A stretch of DNA of 6,255 nt from the NCBI GenBank assembly GCA_946887065.1, contig CAMPKL010000238.1:1-6255 (forward strand), written 5' to 3'. A program made the position numbers and the translations under genes. This DNA comes from an uncultured Bryobacterales bacterium (GTDB taxonomy: Bacteria; Acidobacteriota; Terriglobia; Bryobacterales; UBA6623). The stretch's first letter is position 1. Every line of letters begins with the position of its first letter. The notes beneath the pieces were generated by a model. It worked only from the letters and a program-made list of their open reading frames with translations. It was not told the origin of the DNA and ran no database searches. Of this stretch, positions 1 to 6,255 are shown piece by piece.

Positions 1-1446
1 GGTTTTGAAGACGCAATCGTTCGCAGCTTACTCATCGCGGCTTGGCTGACGGTTGTTGCTCTGGCGTTGGGAGTTCCGTGCGGATTGTTCGCTGCGTTGT
101 ACCAATTTCCAGCGCGAACTGCGTTGCTGGCGGGTCTTGCCTTGCCTCTGTTGCTGCCATCGTTCTTGTGGGCGATAGGCTTATCGAATTTAAGGATCGG
201 GCTGGGTCTTGCTCGCGAGAGCGTTCTGGGCGGGAGCAGTGGTTCGGTGTTCGCCTTCGCGTGTATGGCTTGTCCACTTGTCGTTTTCTCGACGATTCTT
301 AGCGTTCGCTCTCTACCGGCAAACATGCTTGCGGCGGCTCGGCTGGCGGGCGGAGAGATGACGGTCATTCGTTACGCCAGTCGCACTTCGCTTCCCGGCG
401 CCGTAGCGGGCGCATTGCTCGGCGCTGCGATAAGCATGACGGACGCCGGTCCAGGCCAAATTCTCGGCGCCGGGGGTGCGGCCTCGCAGATTCTAATTTC
501 GTTTTCCGCGCTCTATGACTTCGAGACGGCCGCCCTGCAAAGTATGGCGGTGGCGGCTCTAGCTTTGGCCGTCGCGACGCCCGGCGTTTGGTGGGTTGCC
601 AGGCATTTCGACCAGGCTGCTACGTCGCGTGACACTCGACTGAGCGCACCCAGCCGACACGCCGTCGGCAGTTGGGCGGCAATGCTGCTGTGTTTGGTAG
701 TTCTGCTGTTGACGTTGGTAGCCCCGCTGATAGGCCTGGCGACTTCGGCATTCGCGCACAACTGGATGGACCGTGTCGTCGCGGTCGCGGCGGATACGGG
801 ATTCAATAGCCTCTACTACGCAATCATTGCCGCCTTTGTAGCCACGACGCTAGGGATATCGGTGGCGCTGGGAGTCGGCCGCATCAAGAGCCTCAAATCC
901 GTCGTCCTGGGATTTTTGATCGCGGTATTTGTACTTCCGTCGGCGCTCTTCGGCATTGGAGCTGTGTTTGCGGGAACCTCGGCGCCCGCTTGGCTCGATC
1001 CGCTTTTTCGCGGGCGGTTTGTCGTTGGATTGGTGTCGGGACTGCGGCTGACGCCCTTGGCTGCGGTGCTGATGATGCGAGCTCTGGCTGCGACGGAGCC
1101 GAACTGGGCGCTTGCCGCCGGGGTTCACGGCGTCTCGTTGGGGAGTTTTGTCCGCCGGGTTCTAGCGCCCTATCATGCTTCGTCGGCGATGGTTGCCGCG
1201 GGCTTAGTTGGCTTGTTGGCGCTGGCGGATGTAACAACGGTCATGTTGCTGCAACCGCCCGGGGAGAGTTCCTATGCCGCTTCTCTATTTACGGTTATGG
1301 CCAACGCACCGGAGTCGCTCGTGGCGAACCTCTGCCTCTTTTATGTGGCAGTGGCCGGTGCGAGTAGTTTACTTGTAACGACCTGGCTTGCGCGCCCAAC
1401 GAGGGCCGAGCGAGAGCGCCGGCACGGCGAGGGAAAAGGGAGATGA
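1..1446 (+). CDS. Fused two-domain ABC importer permease, Fe(III)/thiamine type (5'-truncated)
   Basis: This is the inner-membrane channel subunit of a binding-protein-dependent ABC importer. Frame 1 is open from the first base to the TGA at 1444-1446, giving 481 residues. The protein is a string of hydrophobic segments in two homologous halves, as in FbpB/SfuB and ThiP, where two BPD_transp_1 domains are fused. Each half has an EAA-like cytoplasmic loop that would dock on the ATPase: about nt 331-396 (AAARLAGGEMTVIRYASR, then SLP) and nt 1108-1170 (ALAAGVHGVSLGSFVRRVLA, then P). The fused permeases usually have about 500-560 residues, so probably only the first membrane helix and a short N-terminal part lie left of the window. 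A TTG at 67 is an internal codon, not the start. The ATPase two genes downstream is the likely partner. Substrate is not determinable: Fe(III) is favoured by the neighbouring cytochrome, but thiamine or another solute remains possible. Confidence 0.88.
   Translation, partial: GFEDAIVRSLLIAAWLTVVALALGVPCGLFAALYQFPARTALLAGLALPLLLPSFLWAIGLSNLRIGLGLARESVLGGSSGSVFAFACMACPLVVFSTILSVRSLPANMLAAARLAGGEMTVIRYASRTSLPGAVAGALLGAAISMTDAGPGQILGAGGAASQILISFSALYDFETAALQSMAVAALALAVATPGVWWVARHFDQAATSRDTRLSAPSRHAVGSWAAMLLCLVVLLLTLVAPLIGLATSAFAHNWMDRVVAVAADTGFNSLYYAIIAAFVATTLGISVALGVGRIKSLKSVVLGFLIAVFVLPSALFGIGAVFAGTSAPAWLDPLFRGRFVVGLVSGLRLTPLAAVLMMRALAATEPNWALAAGVHGVSLGSFVRRVLAPYHASSAMVAAGLVGLLALADVTTVMLLQPPGESSYAASLFTVMANAPESLVANLCLFYVAVAGASSLLVTTWLARPTRAERERRHGEGKGR
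1437..1443 (+). promoter_or_regulatory. Ribosome binding site of the multiheme cytochrome gene
   Basis: AGGGAGA lies 7 nt before the GTG at 1451 and overlaps the end of the permease gene. It is the evidence for choosing GTG 1451 over the longer reading from TTG 1388, which would add 21 hydrophilic residues in front of the membrane anchor. The ATG at 1443 is in another frame and meets a stop after three codons. Confidence 0.75.
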
Positions 1447-1450
1447 ACCG

Positions 1451-3109
1451 GTGACTTGGAAGCAAGTAGCCCTCATTGGGGCACTAGTGGCCGTGGTTAT
1501 TATGGCCGCTCTCGGCGGCCTCTATTTATACATCACTACCGGCGGCTTGATCGCTCGCCAGATACCCAGCTCCATGGAGGCAGCCGCCGCCGAGTGGGTC
1601 CTCAATCTGAGCGTGCCGTTGGCAGCGAGAAACCGCGAGAACCCGCTCGGAATCACAGACGCGAGCGTAGCAGCCGGTCGTGAGCTCTACCAGAAAAAAT
1701 GCGACGTGTGTCACGGCTACGATGGCAGCGGCAAGACCGAGGCGGGAAGTGGCGAGTTTCCGCCGCCAACGGATTTACGCGGCCTTAGGGTTACCAACAG
1801 GACCGACGGCGAACTGTTCTACTTCATCCGGAACGGTATACGAAACACCGCAATGCCCGGTTGGCCCTTGCCGGACCAGAGTATCTGGCAACTGGTTGCG
1901 TTCGTTCGCAGCCTTCCCATCGTGGCTTCTCCTGCCCTTGTAGCTTCCCTCGGCGACGCTTCGATTCCGGTGTTATCCGCGGAGCACGTCGGATCGGCAG
2001 CCTGCAAGACATGCCACAGCGATATCTATGACCGCTGGAGCAAAACCTTAATGGCCAACGTCCTTGTGGACGTGAAGGAGCATCCCGAAGCGATCCTTGG
2101 CGACTTCTCGACGCCCAATGACCTCGTTACATTTACAAGAGAAGACGTTGCGTTTACGTACGGCAGCAAGTGGAAGCAGCGCTACTTTACCAGGATCGAC
2201 GACGACTACTTCGTCTTCCCGGCGCAGTGGGACGTGCAGAACAAAGTGTGGAGGCGCTACTACGTAGAGCCAGGAACGGACTGGTGGGCCGAACACTATC
2301 CAGCCGACCAGATGCAACGCCCGACCGGCCCCACGTGCGACGGTTGCCACTCGACGAATTACGATATCGCAACTAAGCAAGTCACCGAATGGAACGTCGG
2401 CTGCGAAAAGTGTCATGGGCCAGGCAGTGAGCATGTGAAGAACCCACTGTCTTTCAATGTCGCCAATCCGGCCCGTTTGGGCCACGTCGAGGCCAACGAC
2501 GTTTGCATTCAGTGCCATTCCCAAGGCCAGCCGCTGGTCAAGCCGATCGATGGGAAGTACTACGACTGGCCGGTTGGCTTTGAAGTGGGATTGAAGTTGA
2601 GAGACTTCTGGAAACTAGAAGAGCCCGAGTTGGGAGAGACCACGTTCACTCACTTTGCCGACGGCACTGCTAGAAAGAATCGCATGCAAGGTAATGACTA
2701 CGTCACTAGCTCCATGTACACGCACGGCGTTACCTGCTTCACTTGCCACGACGCGCATGGAACCGCGAACGATGCGCTCATGAGGAAGCCGGCGGACAGC
2801 TTGTGCCTCGACTGCCATGGCTCAGGTTCGCCCAATGGGCCCTTCGCCGCGACGATCCAACAGCACACGCACCATGAGGCCGGCAGCGCAGGAAATGAAT
2901 GCATTGCCTGTCACATGCCCGAGATTGCCAGGACGATAGGAGACGTCAACGTCCGCAGCCACACATTTCGATTTCTCTCTCCTTCAACGTCGGAAGCCTA
3001 CGGCGTGCCGAACCCTTGCATCTCGTGCCACACGGATAAGTCGAACGAATGGGCCACGGAAGAACTACGTACTTGGGAGAGCGTATCCCCTTGGAGGGTT
3101 GCGCCGTGA
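1451..3109 (+). CDS. Membrane-anchored nonaheme cytochrome c (class I domain fused to c554-like octaheme domain)
   Basis: This is a periplasmic electron-transfer protein of 552 residues, starting at GTG 1451. Residues about 5-28 form one hydrophobic segment, either an uncleaved anchor or a signal peptide. There are nine CXXCH motifs, with first cysteines at residues 84, 185, 296, 318, 352, 429, 452, 484 and 523; all 18 cysteines fall in these motifs. Residues about 70-155 form a class I cytochrome c domain, with CDVCH and a probable distal haem ligand Met135 in TAMPGW. Residues about 180-360 resemble the cytochrome c554 family (Pfam Cytochrome_C554), with a roughly 110-residue segment between haems 2 and 3. 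Residues about 425-530 resemble doubled-CXXCH domains. Many relatives carry C-terminal TPR repeats; this one ends shortly after the ninth haem. It lies between the importer permease and ATPase genes. The haem count is directly seen. The electron partner and any catalytic activity are unknown. Confidence 0.93.
   Translation: MTWKQVALIGALVAVVIMAALGGLYLYITTGGLIARQIPSSMEAAAAEWVLNLSVPLAARNRENPLGITDASVAAGRELYQKKCDVCHGYDGSGKTEAGSGEFPPPTDLRGLRVTNRTDGELFYFIRNGIRNTAMPGWPLPDQSIWQLVAFVRSLPIVASPALVASLGDASIPVLSAEHVGSAACKTCHSDIYDRWSKTLMANVLVDVKEHPEAILGDFSTPNDLVTFTREDVAFTYGSKWKQRYFTRIDDDYFVFPAQWDVQNKVWRRYYVEPGTDWWAEHYPADQMQRPTGPTCDGCHSTNYDIATKQVTEWNVGCEKCHGPGSEHVKNPLSFNVANPARLGHVEANDVCIQCHSQGQPLVKPIDGKYYDWPVGFEVGLKLRDFWKLEEPELGETTFTHFADGTARKNRMQGNDYVTSSMYTHGVTCFTCHDAHGTANDALMRKPADSLCLDCHGSGSPNGPFAATIQQHTHHEAGSAGNECIACHMPEIARTIGDVNVRSHTFRFLSPSTSEAYGVPNPCISCHTDKSNEWATEELRTWESVSPWRVAP
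3093..3098 (+). promoter_or_regulatory. Ribosome binding site of the ABC ATPase gene
   Basis: GGAGGG sits inside the last codons of the cytochrome gene, 7 nt before the GTG at 3106. It supports GTG 3106 over the in-frame ATG at 3049, which would add 19 residues not expected in an ABC ATPase and would overlap the cytochrome gene by 61 nt. Confidence 0.78.
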
Positions 3110-3873
3110 AACCTTGGATCGAGGCCGAGTCGATCTCGGCAGCACACGGGGCGCAGGTGATCTTGCAGAACGTGAGCTGGACGATCGACGGCGGCAGCCG
3201 CTGGGCGTTGCTGGGGCCGTCAGGCTCTGGAAAATCAACACTACTTCGACTTCTGGCAGGACTGGCGGCGCCTTTCAAAGGTGAGATCAAGATCGACGGC
3301 CGGAGGGCGTCTAGCGCCGGCAAGGTCGAGGTGCCTCCCCACAAGCGCGGTCTTGCGATAGTGTTCCAAGATTTGGCGCTATGGCCGAATCTCACGGCTT
3401 TCGAGAACGTCGAGCTGGGTTTGTCCGGCGCGCGGCTAGGCCGCGATGAACGCAAGCAGCGAGCGCGCGCGGCGCTCGGGGCTTGCCAGATTGCCCATCT
3501 CAGCGAAAGAAGACCGCAGGCGCTTTCCGGCGGGGAGCAGCAGCGGTTAGCTTTGGCGCGCGCGCTTGCGGTGCAACCGAAACTCTTGTTGCTCGATGAA
3601 CCTTTTTCCGGCTTGGATAGCGATGTCAAGGATCGTCTGTTCGTCGAGATCGAGAGCCGAATCGATGAACTCGGATGCGCATTGGTTCTCGGTTCGCATG
3701 ACCCGTGGGAGGCCGCCGCGCTTTGCTCGTCCGCGCTCGTGTTGGAGGGTGGAACGACGATCGAGTCGGGCGCCTTCGCCGACTTGCTTTCGTCGCCCAT
3801 GTCGAAGACTCTCAAGAGCTTTGTCGAGCATCGGTCGGCTTTCCGACGCCAATTCACTGAGGAGCAGGCATGA
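3106..3873 (+). CDS. ABC importer ATP-binding protein (FbpC/ThiQ/PotA-like)
   Basis: This is the cytoplasmic ATPase that powers an ABC importer, 255 residues from GTG 3106. All motifs are intact: Walker A GPSGSGKST at residues 37-45, Q-loop Gln88 in VFQDL, signature LSGGE at 140-144, Walker B LLLLD ending at Asp164 with catalytic Glu165, D-loop SGLD at 168-171, and switch His198 in GSHD. The sequence around VFQDLALWPNLTAFENV is typical of ATPases for iron, thiamine, polyamine or sulfate importers. It is shorter than FbpC or PotA (about 350 residues), so it appears to lack their C-terminal regulatory (TOBE-like) domain; in length it is closer to ThiQ. The start overlaps the cytochrome stop (GTGA), so translation is probably coupled. 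The permease at 1-1446 is the likely partner although the cytochrome gene separates them. An unseen permease outside the window is a less likely alternative. Confidence 0.92.
   Translation: MKPWIEAESISAAHGAQVILQNVSWTIDGGSRWALLGPSGSGKSTLLRLLAGLAAPFKGEIKIDGRRASSAGKVEVPPHKRGLAIVFQDLALWPNLTAFENVELGLSGARLGRDERKQRARAALGACQIAHLSERRPQALSGGEQQRLALARALAVQPKLLLLDEPFSGLDSDVKDRLFVEIESRIDELGCALVLGSHDPWEAAALCSSALVLEGGTTIESGAFADLLSSPMSKTLKSFVEHRSAFRRQFTEEQA
3859..3864 (+). promoter_or_regulatory. Ribosome binding site of the TolC-family gene
   Basis: GAGGAG within the last codons of the ATPase gene, 5 nt before the ATG at 3870. Together with the ATGA overlap it fixes the start of the outer-membrane channel gene. 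Confidence 0.7.
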
Positions 3874-5168
3874 ACGAGAAGTGGCTCAAGCGATCGGTGA
3901 CCTGGACGGCCTTATTTCTATGTTTCACGAAGATCTCCGTCTTGGGACAGACACCGACGCTGACTCTGGACGACTGCATTCGGCTCGCACTCGAGGCCCC
4001 CTCAACAGTCCGGGCGGCCGCGCTAGAAGAACTCATCGCCGCCGAACGGCAGACGGCGGCACGAGCGGAGTTGCTCCCGCAGCTTGGGTTGACCTCCGGC
4101 TATACCTACAACAGCCCGGTCACGAACGGCCCCAATCCCTTCAGCTTTGTCGCACTGAACGGCGTACGAGAGTACCTGGCGACAGCCGGCACGAACTGGA
4201 GCCTCGATCTCTCCGGTCGCCTGCGCGCCGGGCTGGCGCTGGCGCGGGCCGGCCGCGATCTTGCCTCCGCCGATCTTGCGGTCGCCCGCCGCGATGTCCG
4301 CCGTGCGGTGACGCTCGCATTCTACGATGTACTGCTGGCCCGCCAAATCTTCGAACTGGAGGAGGGCAGTCTCGAAGAAGCGCGCGAGTTTGAGCGAGCG
4401 GTCCGAGCGCGGCGAGAGCAGGGAGAAGCTTCGCAGGCAGATGTCTTGAAGGCGTCGGCGCAGCGCGCCCAGTTCGAGCAGCGCGTTGGACAAGCCCAAC
4501 TCGACTCCCGGTTGGCGAACCAAATGCTGGCGTCATTTTGGACAACGGACGTCGATCGGGAGTTGTCTCTGGCGGAAGTGCTCGATTCGTCAGTCGAGCC
4601 AATGCCTACTGCTGTCGGCGAACGATCCGAACCCGAGATTCGGCACCGGCCTGAGCTGCGGCGTTTGGATGCGCTAAGCCGAACCTACGATGCCCAGCGA
4701 GCGATTGCTGGAGCCGGCTTGAAGCCGGAGGCGAGCGTCGTCTTCCAGTACGGCCTCGACGCCAATCAGGTGCGCGCAGACCAACGAGGCTACGCCGCGT
4801 TCGTTAATGTCAACGTGCCGGTGTTTGACTGGTTCCGCTCCCGCAGCGGGGTCCGTGAGGCGAAGTACCGGCTCGAACAAGTGCAGCAGGAGCGGGTCAT
4901 TGCGGAGCGAACGTTCAGCCGCGAGTATCTCGCCGCTCGGGCGCGGGCGCAGTCTTGGTATGGGCGGATACCGCTGGCCGAAGGCGAGCTTAACGCCGCG
5001 CGCGAAAACCTGCGTCTGGTTCGGCTGCTCTACGTCGCGGGCGAGGGAACGGCGCTCGACGTCGTGCTCTCGCAAGTGCAGGCCGCGCAAGCGGGACGAT
5101 CCTTCTACTCGACTGTTGCGGAGTACCGACGAGCGCTGGCGGACTTCGAAGTGGCGGCAGGCTTATGA
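3870..5168 (+). CDS. TolC-family outer-membrane efflux channel protein
   Basis: This is the outer-membrane channel of a tripartite efflux system, 432 residues. Residues 1-26 look like a signal peptide: a basic start (MNEKWLKR), a hydrophobic core, and a probable cut after VLG before QTPT. The mature protein opens with LTLDDCIRLALEAPSTVRAA (31-50), the usual first motif of outer-membrane efflux proteins. Two alpha-helical, Ala/Arg/Glu-rich repeats follow, each with a beta segment (about 75-115, GLTSGYTYNSPV; and about 285-330, VVFQYGLDANQ to VPVFDWFRSRSG), matching the duplicated TolC fold. Length is normal for the family. No lipobox is seen, unlike CusC or OprM. The start overlaps the ATPase stop (ATGA), and the stop overlaps the adaptor start in the same way. 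Its cargo cannot be read from the sequence; the following adaptor is its likely partner. Confidence 0.9.
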   Translation: MNEKWLKRSVTWTALFLCFTKISVLGQTPTLTLDDCIRLALEAPSTVRAAALEELIAAERQTAARAELLPQLGLTSGYTYNSPVTNGPNPFSFVALNGVREYLATAGTNWSLDLSGRLRAGLALARAGRDLASADLAVARRDVRRAVTLAFYDVLLARQIFELEEGSLEEAREFERAVRARREQGEASQADVLKASAQRAQFEQRVGQAQLDSRLANQMLASFWTTDVDRELSLAEVLDSSVEPMPTAVGERSEPEIRHRPELRRLDALSRTYDAQRAIAGAGLKPEASVVFQYGLDANQVRADQRGYAAFVNVNVPVFDWFRSRSGVREAKYRLEQVQQERVIAERTFSREYLAARARAQSWYGRIPLAEGELNAARENLRLVRLLYVAGEGTALDVVLSQVQAAQAGRSFYSTVAEYRRALADFEVAAGL

Positions 5169-6255
5169 CCCAGTACGCCAAGCTTCTATTCATCACCGCA
5201 CTCGCGTGGAGCGGTTGCGCGAACTCGGAAGAACCACCCGAGCCTGATGTGGTCGTCGCGGTACGAACCGCCCAGGCCACAGTCCAGGATGTCGAGGAGA
5301 CGGTGAACGCGCCCGCGACGGTTTTCCCGATTGCGGAAGCGCGGGTCGCTCCCAAGTCGACGGCGCCGATCGCACGGCTGGCGGTCCGCAAAGGCGACCG
5401 GGTATCTAGAGGCCAGCCGCTGGCTTGGCTGCGCAGCGAGGACCTCGATGCACAGCTTGCCGAGGCCAAGGCTCAGGTCACAGATGCCGAAGCGACCCTC
5501 GAAAAAGTATCCGCCGGTACGTTGCCGACCGAGATCGAGCGCGCCACGGGCGAGGTCGAAAGGACAGAGGCCGCGTTAGCCGAGGCCAAGCAAATTTTCG
5601 AACGGAGACAGACGCTGGTTGCTGAAGGAGCCCTGCCCGAGCGGGACCTCCTGCTTGCGAAGACGCAGTATGAACAGGCGCAGACTGCTAATCGCGTGGC
5701 TAAGTCGGCCTTGGACTTGCTCTCCAACCAGTCGCATTTGCAGGACATCCGGATTGCGGAGAGCCGCTTGGAGCAGGCGCGGGCGCGGCTAGATCTCGTC
5801 GAAGCCCAACTCGGATACACCCGAATAGACAGCCCGTCGAACGGAGTCGTAACCGAACAGTTCCTCTATCCCGGCGACATGGCTCGCCCTGACGCCCCGG
5901 TCTTCACGGTTATGGACCTCTCCGTGGCCGTCGCGCGTGGTCAATTCCCCGAGGAGCGGATCCCCGGACTCGAAGCCGGGCAAACCTGCCGGTTCTCAGC
6001 TGTCGACGCACCGGACTCCCCCCGCACGGGAAAGCTGACGGTCATCAATCAAGCCGTGGACCCGGCGCGGCGCACCGTAGAGGCATGGTGCGAGATCCCG
6101 AACTCGGACGGAGCGCTCAAGGCAGGCGCCTACGGAGAAGTCTCCGTGGTGCGCAGCGTACGCCGCGATGCGGTCGTCGTTCCCCTCGCGTCTATTCAGC
6201 TCGAACCGAATCGCGATTCGGGCGTGGTGTGGACCGTGGGACCAGACGGCATCGC
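5165..6255 (+). CDS. Periplasmic adaptor (membrane fusion) protein, HlyD/AcrA type, probable lipoprotein (3'-truncated)
   Basis: This adaptor would link an inner-membrane pump to the TolC-family channel. The frame is open from ATG 5165 to the window edge (363 complete codons). Residues 1-18 form a short hydrophobic leader ending in Cys18 (LAWSGC), a probable lipid attachment site, although Trp at -3 is atypical. Two lipoyl half-motifs flank the hairpin: GDRVSRGQPLAWL (77-89) and GYTRIDSPSNGVV (217-229). Between them, residues about 92-215 are a long alpha-helical coiled coil rich in Ala, Glu and Gln. Beta-barrel segments follow (about 245-335), and then the start of the membrane-proximal domain (VVVPLASIQL, 337-346). 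Adaptors of this shape serve RND pumps and also some ABC exporters, and the pump gene is not in the window. The ribosome site is weak (AGG, 3 nt before ATG), so translation probably depends on coupling through the ATGA overlap with the preceding gene. Confidence 0.9.
   Translation, partial: MTQYAKLLFITALAWSGCANSEEPPEPDVVVAVRTAQATVQDVEETVNAPATVFPIAEARVAPKSTAPIARLAVRKGDRVSRGQPLAWLRSEDLDAQLAEAKAQVTDAEATLEKVSAGTLPTEIERATGEVERTEAALAEAKQIFERRQTLVAEGALPERDLLLAKTQYEQAQTANRVAKSALDLLSNQSHLQDIRIAESRLEQARARLDLVEAQLGYTRIDSPSNGVVTEQFLYPGDMARPDAPVFTVMDLSVAVARGQFPEERIPGLEAGQTCRFSAVDAPDSPRTGKLTVINQAVDPARRTVEAWCEIPNSDGALKAGAYGEVSVVRSVRRDAVVVPLASIQLEPNRDSGVVWTVGPDGI

Follow-up and report, generated by a model that had tools for sequence, protein, structure and literature searches.

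The described systems closest to the genes considered here are chromate-resistance determinants, ABC importers of the AfuABC/PhnSTUV/FbpABC clan, the multihaem reductase OcwA and TolC-adaptor-RND efflux pumps. Chromate determinants include ChrBACF of Ochrobactrum and the chrJ, chrK, chrL, ChrA and ChrB genes of Arthrobacter FB24, where chrL encodes an LppY/LpqO-type lipoprotein and chrK a WD40-repeat protein; both are induced by Cr(VI), and resistance falls upon their deletion (PMC2751784). The FB24 genes listed there include neither a multihaem cytochrome nor an ABC importer nor an RND pump. A stretch of 6,255 nt from an uncultured Bryobacterales bacterium (contig CAMPKL010000238.1, positions 1 to 6,255 of the forward strand), called here the window, has no chr gene and encodes, head to tail, an ABC importer permease, a nine-haem cytochrome c, the importer ATPase, a TolC-type outer membrane channel and an RND periplasmic adaptor. 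Relatives of both halves of this gene run, importer and cytochrome, adjoin ChrA, ChrB, DUF1259, a YncE-like propeller or SOD. The importer class and part of the cytochrome family are linked to chromate-resistance (chr) genes and to each other. With a probability of about 0.5, the window is part of a chromate/oxyanion-stress operon of the order (binding protein)-permease-cytochrome-ATPase-TolC-adaptor-(RND pump), the two genes in brackets presumably lying beyond the window, as judged from relatives. It is the gene company alone that makes chromate the leading candidate.

The importer side of this linkage comes from a permease-alignment scan of species genomes, which gave 30 loci with titles naming many phyla. 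ChrA, ChrB, DUF1259 or SOD occur in 10 of them, and in seven of the nine whose 10-kb flanks are complete (L001, L004, L013, L015, L016, L020 and L022; L denotes loci and G genomes), the ChrA-like match of L020 being merely 26% identical. In the importer-locus examples scanned, Pfam confirms ChrB_C, ChrB_N, Chromate_transp, DUF1259 and SOD. We take DUF1259 to be the LppY/LpqO lipoprotein family, and the YncE-like propeller is presumably of the chrK kind. A secreted-type KDH-like gene accompanies 18/30 importer loci and lies 5′ of the importer in L002, L004, L022 and others; the L002 copy scores 26.7 bits with PF06439, for a cut-off of 26.8. DUF5916 proteins are seen near chr genes both in importer locus L001 (4831-6921) and in cytochrome locus L069 (11079-13256).

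The cytochrome side rests on loci from two genome sets, one of 396 from the phylum and one of 250 from the class; extended flanks were read for 72 of 73 loci, contig ends truncating some of them. ChrA, ChrB, DUF1259 or an importer-type binding protein occurs within 8 kb in seven of the 72, and all seven have at least one such gene at 0-194 bp, measured between the longest open reading frames (ORFs). ChrB lies 6 bp from the cytochrome in L069, 0 bp in L074 and 51 bp in L242, where DUF1259 is 1038 bp away. DUF1259 is 194 bp from the cytochrome in L134 and 119 bp in its close relative L142, both DUF1259 and a solute-binding protein (SBP) are at 0 bp in L151, and ChrA is at 6 bp in L152. About 0.3 chr-linked loci are expected versus seven observed (n=72), an expectation built from 36 ChrB_C matches and ∼32 DUF1259 genes (33 entered) in 91 genomes, with the ChrA frequency set equal to that of ChrB_C rather than measured. 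TolC, adaptor and RND genes stand at three cytochrome loci (L145, L152 and L191). When 101 genes around 56 cytochrome loci are counted by Pfam family, with some editing by hand, CarboxypepD_reg appears four times, DUF1259, OEP and DUF2231 three times each, and the group at two each includes ChrB and SBP_bac_11. A broken DUF1259 piece near the cytochrome on the L250 contig was left out of the counts.

Importer, cytochrome and efflux genes meet in several genomes. A single operon in G619 reads KDH-KDH-DUF1259-octahaem cytochrome-SBP-permease-ATPase-ChrB_C. Within ∼16 kb, G625 has a KDH-DUF1259-SBP-permease-ATPase operon, ChrA, an octahaem cytochrome and TolC-adaptor-RND. The gene run of G622 is KDH-octahaem cytochrome-TolC-adaptor-RND, its TolC and adaptor being 70% and 73% identical to those of the window. 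In G622, G625 and G616 the adaptor is followed by an RND pump, with Pfam ACR_tran for G622. A response-regulator-like gene lies on the opposite strand beside KDH in the G619, G625 and G622 clusters; the models for heavy-metal regulator and kinase have cut-offs of 279.2 and 292.55 bits, which the G622 copy and the next gene miss with 221.5 and 291.2. The importer binding-protein family is found in only three of the 250 class genomes (G021, G619 and G625), all among the 62 that carry the cytochrome, and binding-protein and cytochrome genes are clustered in two of these three (G619 and G625). The permease of G619 is 54% like that of G625. Sixteen TolC-adaptor-RND loci that lack the cytochrome served as a control; 14 belong to the same family and two are more distant, and some are cut short. 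They contain no match to ChrA, ChrB, DUF1259, the binding protein or KDH. A weak YncE-like match in L224 and a five-haem ORF in L226 are seen among the control loci. The TolC-adaptor-RND operon without cytochrome occurs in further class genomes (L223-L236), and the RND pumps seen there share 59-72% identity with the G622 pump.

The recurrence of the same partners in differing arrangements (G619, G625, G622 and G616), together with chr genes that adjoin the cytochrome beyond expectation and are missing from the 16 cytochrome-free loci, speaks against an explanation by recombination. According to this explanation, a general respiratory or electron-sink cytochrome of Acidobacteriota has moved into an importer operon, where it is merely co-expressed and the other genes are unrelated to it. 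Such a history is somewhat doubtful, and it draws its strength from the abundance of the cytochrome family, which is present in 62/250 class genomes and gives 6466 matches at 1e-3 among 7998 scored candidates. Most loci stand apart: 63/72 have neither chr genes nor TolC/adaptor, L081 with an RND-like ORF (39%) among them. This indicates that the cytochrome family has wider uses and that its chr-linked part is a subset. The recombination explanation also gains from the rarity of close cytochromes in permease genomes and from the strict adjacency of permease and ATPase elsewhere. The ATPase directly follows the permease in 27/27 informative related loci, with estimated gaps of −63 to +42 nt, and the other three loci are cut and hence uninformative on this order. 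An SBP lies 5′ of the permease in 25/30 loci, four of the remaining five being cut there, so that relatives have the order SBP-permease-ATPase. Because the 27 relatives leave no room for a gene between permease and ATPase, the permease-cytochrome-ATPase order (0/27) is peculiar to the window.

The preliminary description of this DNA had proposed that the cytochrome works with the importer, and had named two findings that would speak against it: an order confined to this genome, or an ATPase that pairs with another permease in relatives. The first is the case for the order as such; the second is not, the ATPase keeping the same permease in all 27 loci. The proposal itself stands in part. The link recurs inside the operon of G619 and in the cluster of G625, but 28/29 permease genomes lack a cytochrome match above 60%.

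Several observations weigh against reading the window as part of a chromate/oxyanion-stress operon, starting with the 63 cytochrome loci that stand apart. A cytochrome match at 1e-20 exists in eight of the 29 permease-family genomes and in none of the other 21. G021 is the only one with a match above 60% (64%, in the octahaem part), on another contig, and G001, which has a full ChrA-DUF1259-ChrB importer locus, has a distant cytochrome match only. Two fully flanked importer loci, L005 and L026 (the locus of G021), are without chr genes. The permeases of G619 and G625 are only distant relatives of that of the window (31% identical, 55.5 bits for G625). None of the five window proteins matches ChrA or ChrB in Pfam, the window being truncated at either end, and the binding protein of the window lies outside it, so that ligand residues are read from relatives. 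The expected number of chr-linked loci depends on the assumed ChrA frequency, and we know of no reductase activity in this cytochrome family.

Relatives give some hints on the ligand of the importer. With the broad FbpA/AfuA/Phn clan, of which it is a member, the importer shares the one-chain permease, the ATPase and, in relatives, the binding-protein fold and the SBP-permease-ATPase order. It differs from AfuABC, PhnSTUV and FbpABC by Asp-Asp in place of tandem Tyr in relatives, by equivalog cut-offs that are not reached and, in the window, by the cytochrome between permease and ATPase. Permease relatives are annotated in their source records as iron(III)/Fe3+ transport permeases. Tandem tyrosines are the iron ligands of ferric-binding proteins. 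They are absent from the binding proteins of 24/24 related loci, where Asp226, Asp228 and Asp229 are invariant, and Asp228-Asp229 fall on the Tyr-Tyr columns in a profile alignment. On these grounds, and with chromate-resistance genes as neighbours, ferric iron is not supported as ligand. The idea of the preliminary description, that the importer takes up ferric iron and the cytochrome reduces or oxidizes iron in the periplasm, is therefore very improbable, even though annotations and fold recall iron transport.

The fold itself leaves several ligands in play. The model of the L001 binding protein (pLDDT 90.6) resembles ferric binders, AfuA and P5PA to a similar degree. AfuA, formerly called ferric, binds sugar phosphates via His205, Asp206 and Glu229 (PMC4546632). 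Thiamine, also named in the preliminary description, is likewise not supported, since the ThiQ and sfuA models score under the Phn models. The latter are nearest for the window ATPase, the L001 binding protein and the G625 permease. The PhnSTUV equivalog cut-offs are missed by the window ATPase (195.5 versus 457.7 bits) and by the L001 binding protein (99.8 versus 392.75 bits). The window permease matches only the PotC (27.2 bits) and ModB (19.7 bits) models.

These affinities lend some weight to a variant that overlaps with the stress-operon reading, in which another oxyanion is handled (tungstate, molybdate, vanadate or phosphonate) and chr genes are neighbours through shared chemistry. Another oxyanion is possible because a different binding protein and ATPase precede an octahaem relative in L149 (G483): a PBP_like_2 binding protein and an ABC ATPase (3831-6746) are encoded immediately 5′ of it, the former presumably a TupA-type tungstate binder, and represent a second importer type beside this cytochrome family. 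In addition, vanadate resistance accompanies Cr(VI) resistance in an Ochrobactrum strain that carries ChrBACF (PMC7039435). The PBP_like_2 case is a single locus, and the recurrent partners are ChrA, ChrB and DUF1259; this variant is unlikely.

The genes of the window are tightly packed on the plus strand, as first described, and the run extends beyond the importer into TolC and adaptor. The permease (1..1446) has two membrane halves in one chain and, by comparison with relatives, ∼50 N-terminal residues beyond the left edge; its BPD_transp_1 score (24.9 bits) is slightly below the 26.4-bit Pfam cut-off. The junction with the cytochrome (1451..3109) reads TGA, 4 nt, GTG. The ATPase (3106..3873) overlaps the cytochrome stop by GTGA, matches ABC_tran in Pfam and carries Walker A, LSGGE signature, Walker B and H-loop motifs, as read from the sequence. 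GTG was the analyst's choice of start codon for both cytochrome and ATPase. As judged by Pfam and motifs, both members of the importer-class pairing, permease and ATPase, are encoded in the window. Two further 4-nt stop/start overlaps, both ATGA, join the ATPase to TolC (3870..5168) and TolC to the adaptor, a membrane fusion protein (5165..6253) with its 3′ end beyond the window; both genes have ATG starts. TolC exceeds the OEP cut-off (PF02321, 2.8e-43), and the adaptor matches HlyD and exceeds the cut-off of TIGR01730, consistent with RND tripartite efflux. Compared with known TolC-adaptor-RND systems, the window has a whole TolC and a partial adaptor, and differs in that they are joined head to tail with importer genes. 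A chimaeric assembly was considered as the cause of the odd gene order and is less likely because the overlaps are exact and the base composition is alike across genes (GC 0.58-0.64). Near-identical proteins are recorded elsewhere (permease 95%, cytochrome 96%, TolC 98%). P0004, a nine-haem relative, and P0246, a TolC relative, come from the same source and from contigs of equal length (4406), which hints at a second nine-haem-TolC contig; a chance agreement in length is possible, as 3356 likewise appears in both lists.

The cytochrome has an N-terminal hydrophobic stretch, a cbb3-type monohaem domain and an octahaem domain, with CxxCH motifs at residues 84, 185, 296, 318, 352, 429, 452, 484 and 523. 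Pfam matches are to cbb3-type cytochrome c and to c3/c7/c554-type multihaem models. Met135 of the monohaem domain is kept in 24/24 aligned rows. Among the non-CxxCH His columns inspected in 60 octahaem sequences, five are invariant (328, 436, 472, 475 and 504, window numbering). At column 408, His is kept in 53/60 of these sequences and in 22/24 of the more closely aligned set, but the window and two other sequences have Arg; this replacement may alter the coordination of one haem. Thermincola OcwA, a terminal reductase with nine haems (PDB 6i5b; PMC6703420), matches residues 175-392 by profile (126.9 bits); it differs in that the octahaem domain is matched in part only and the N-terminal cbb3-type domain of the window matches other proteins. 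The predicted structure of the window cytochrome has a pLDDT of 49 and no fold claim was drawn from it.

In a tree that did not take in 120 listed protein matches, many of similar length, one clade consists of 20 nine-haem rows together with a single eight-haem row, and the cytochromes of the window and L069 fall among eight-haem rows. The window cytochrome pairs with that of G622 at 91/91, below the tool's mark for a firm branch. Among plasmids, the cytochrome has matches in 261 records of one collection, none of them across >80% of its length, and the best match, in Granulicella, has unrelated genes around it.

If the window is part of a chromate/oxyanion-stress operon, a possible division of labour can be outlined. 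The cytochrome would be anchored in the inner membrane and face the periplasm. Its monohaem cbb3-type domain would draw electrons from the quinol or cytochrome c pool, and its octahaem domain would reduce a toxic oxyanion in the periplasm, chromate being the first candidate. The importer would take up an anionic, non-ferric ligand required under oxyanion stress, the TolC-adaptor-RND pump would expel toxic products, and production of all components would be coordinated by translational coupling. The stronger proposal of an import-reduce-export machine, in which a dedicated periplasmic chromate/oxyanion reductase at the importer forms one previously undescribed defence of Acidobacteriota together with importer and RND pump, with reduction fixed in the gene set in addition to ChrA efflux, is improbable at present. 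In a literature search, none of the titles or abstract openings among the matches listed placed a multihaem cytochrome or an ABC importer within a chr cluster.

Were the chromate/oxyanion-stress reading true, Cr(VI) handling in acidobacteria would gain a defined genetic system open to knockout and assay, and a class of ABC importers labelled as iron(III) transport would gain a testable non-iron ligand.
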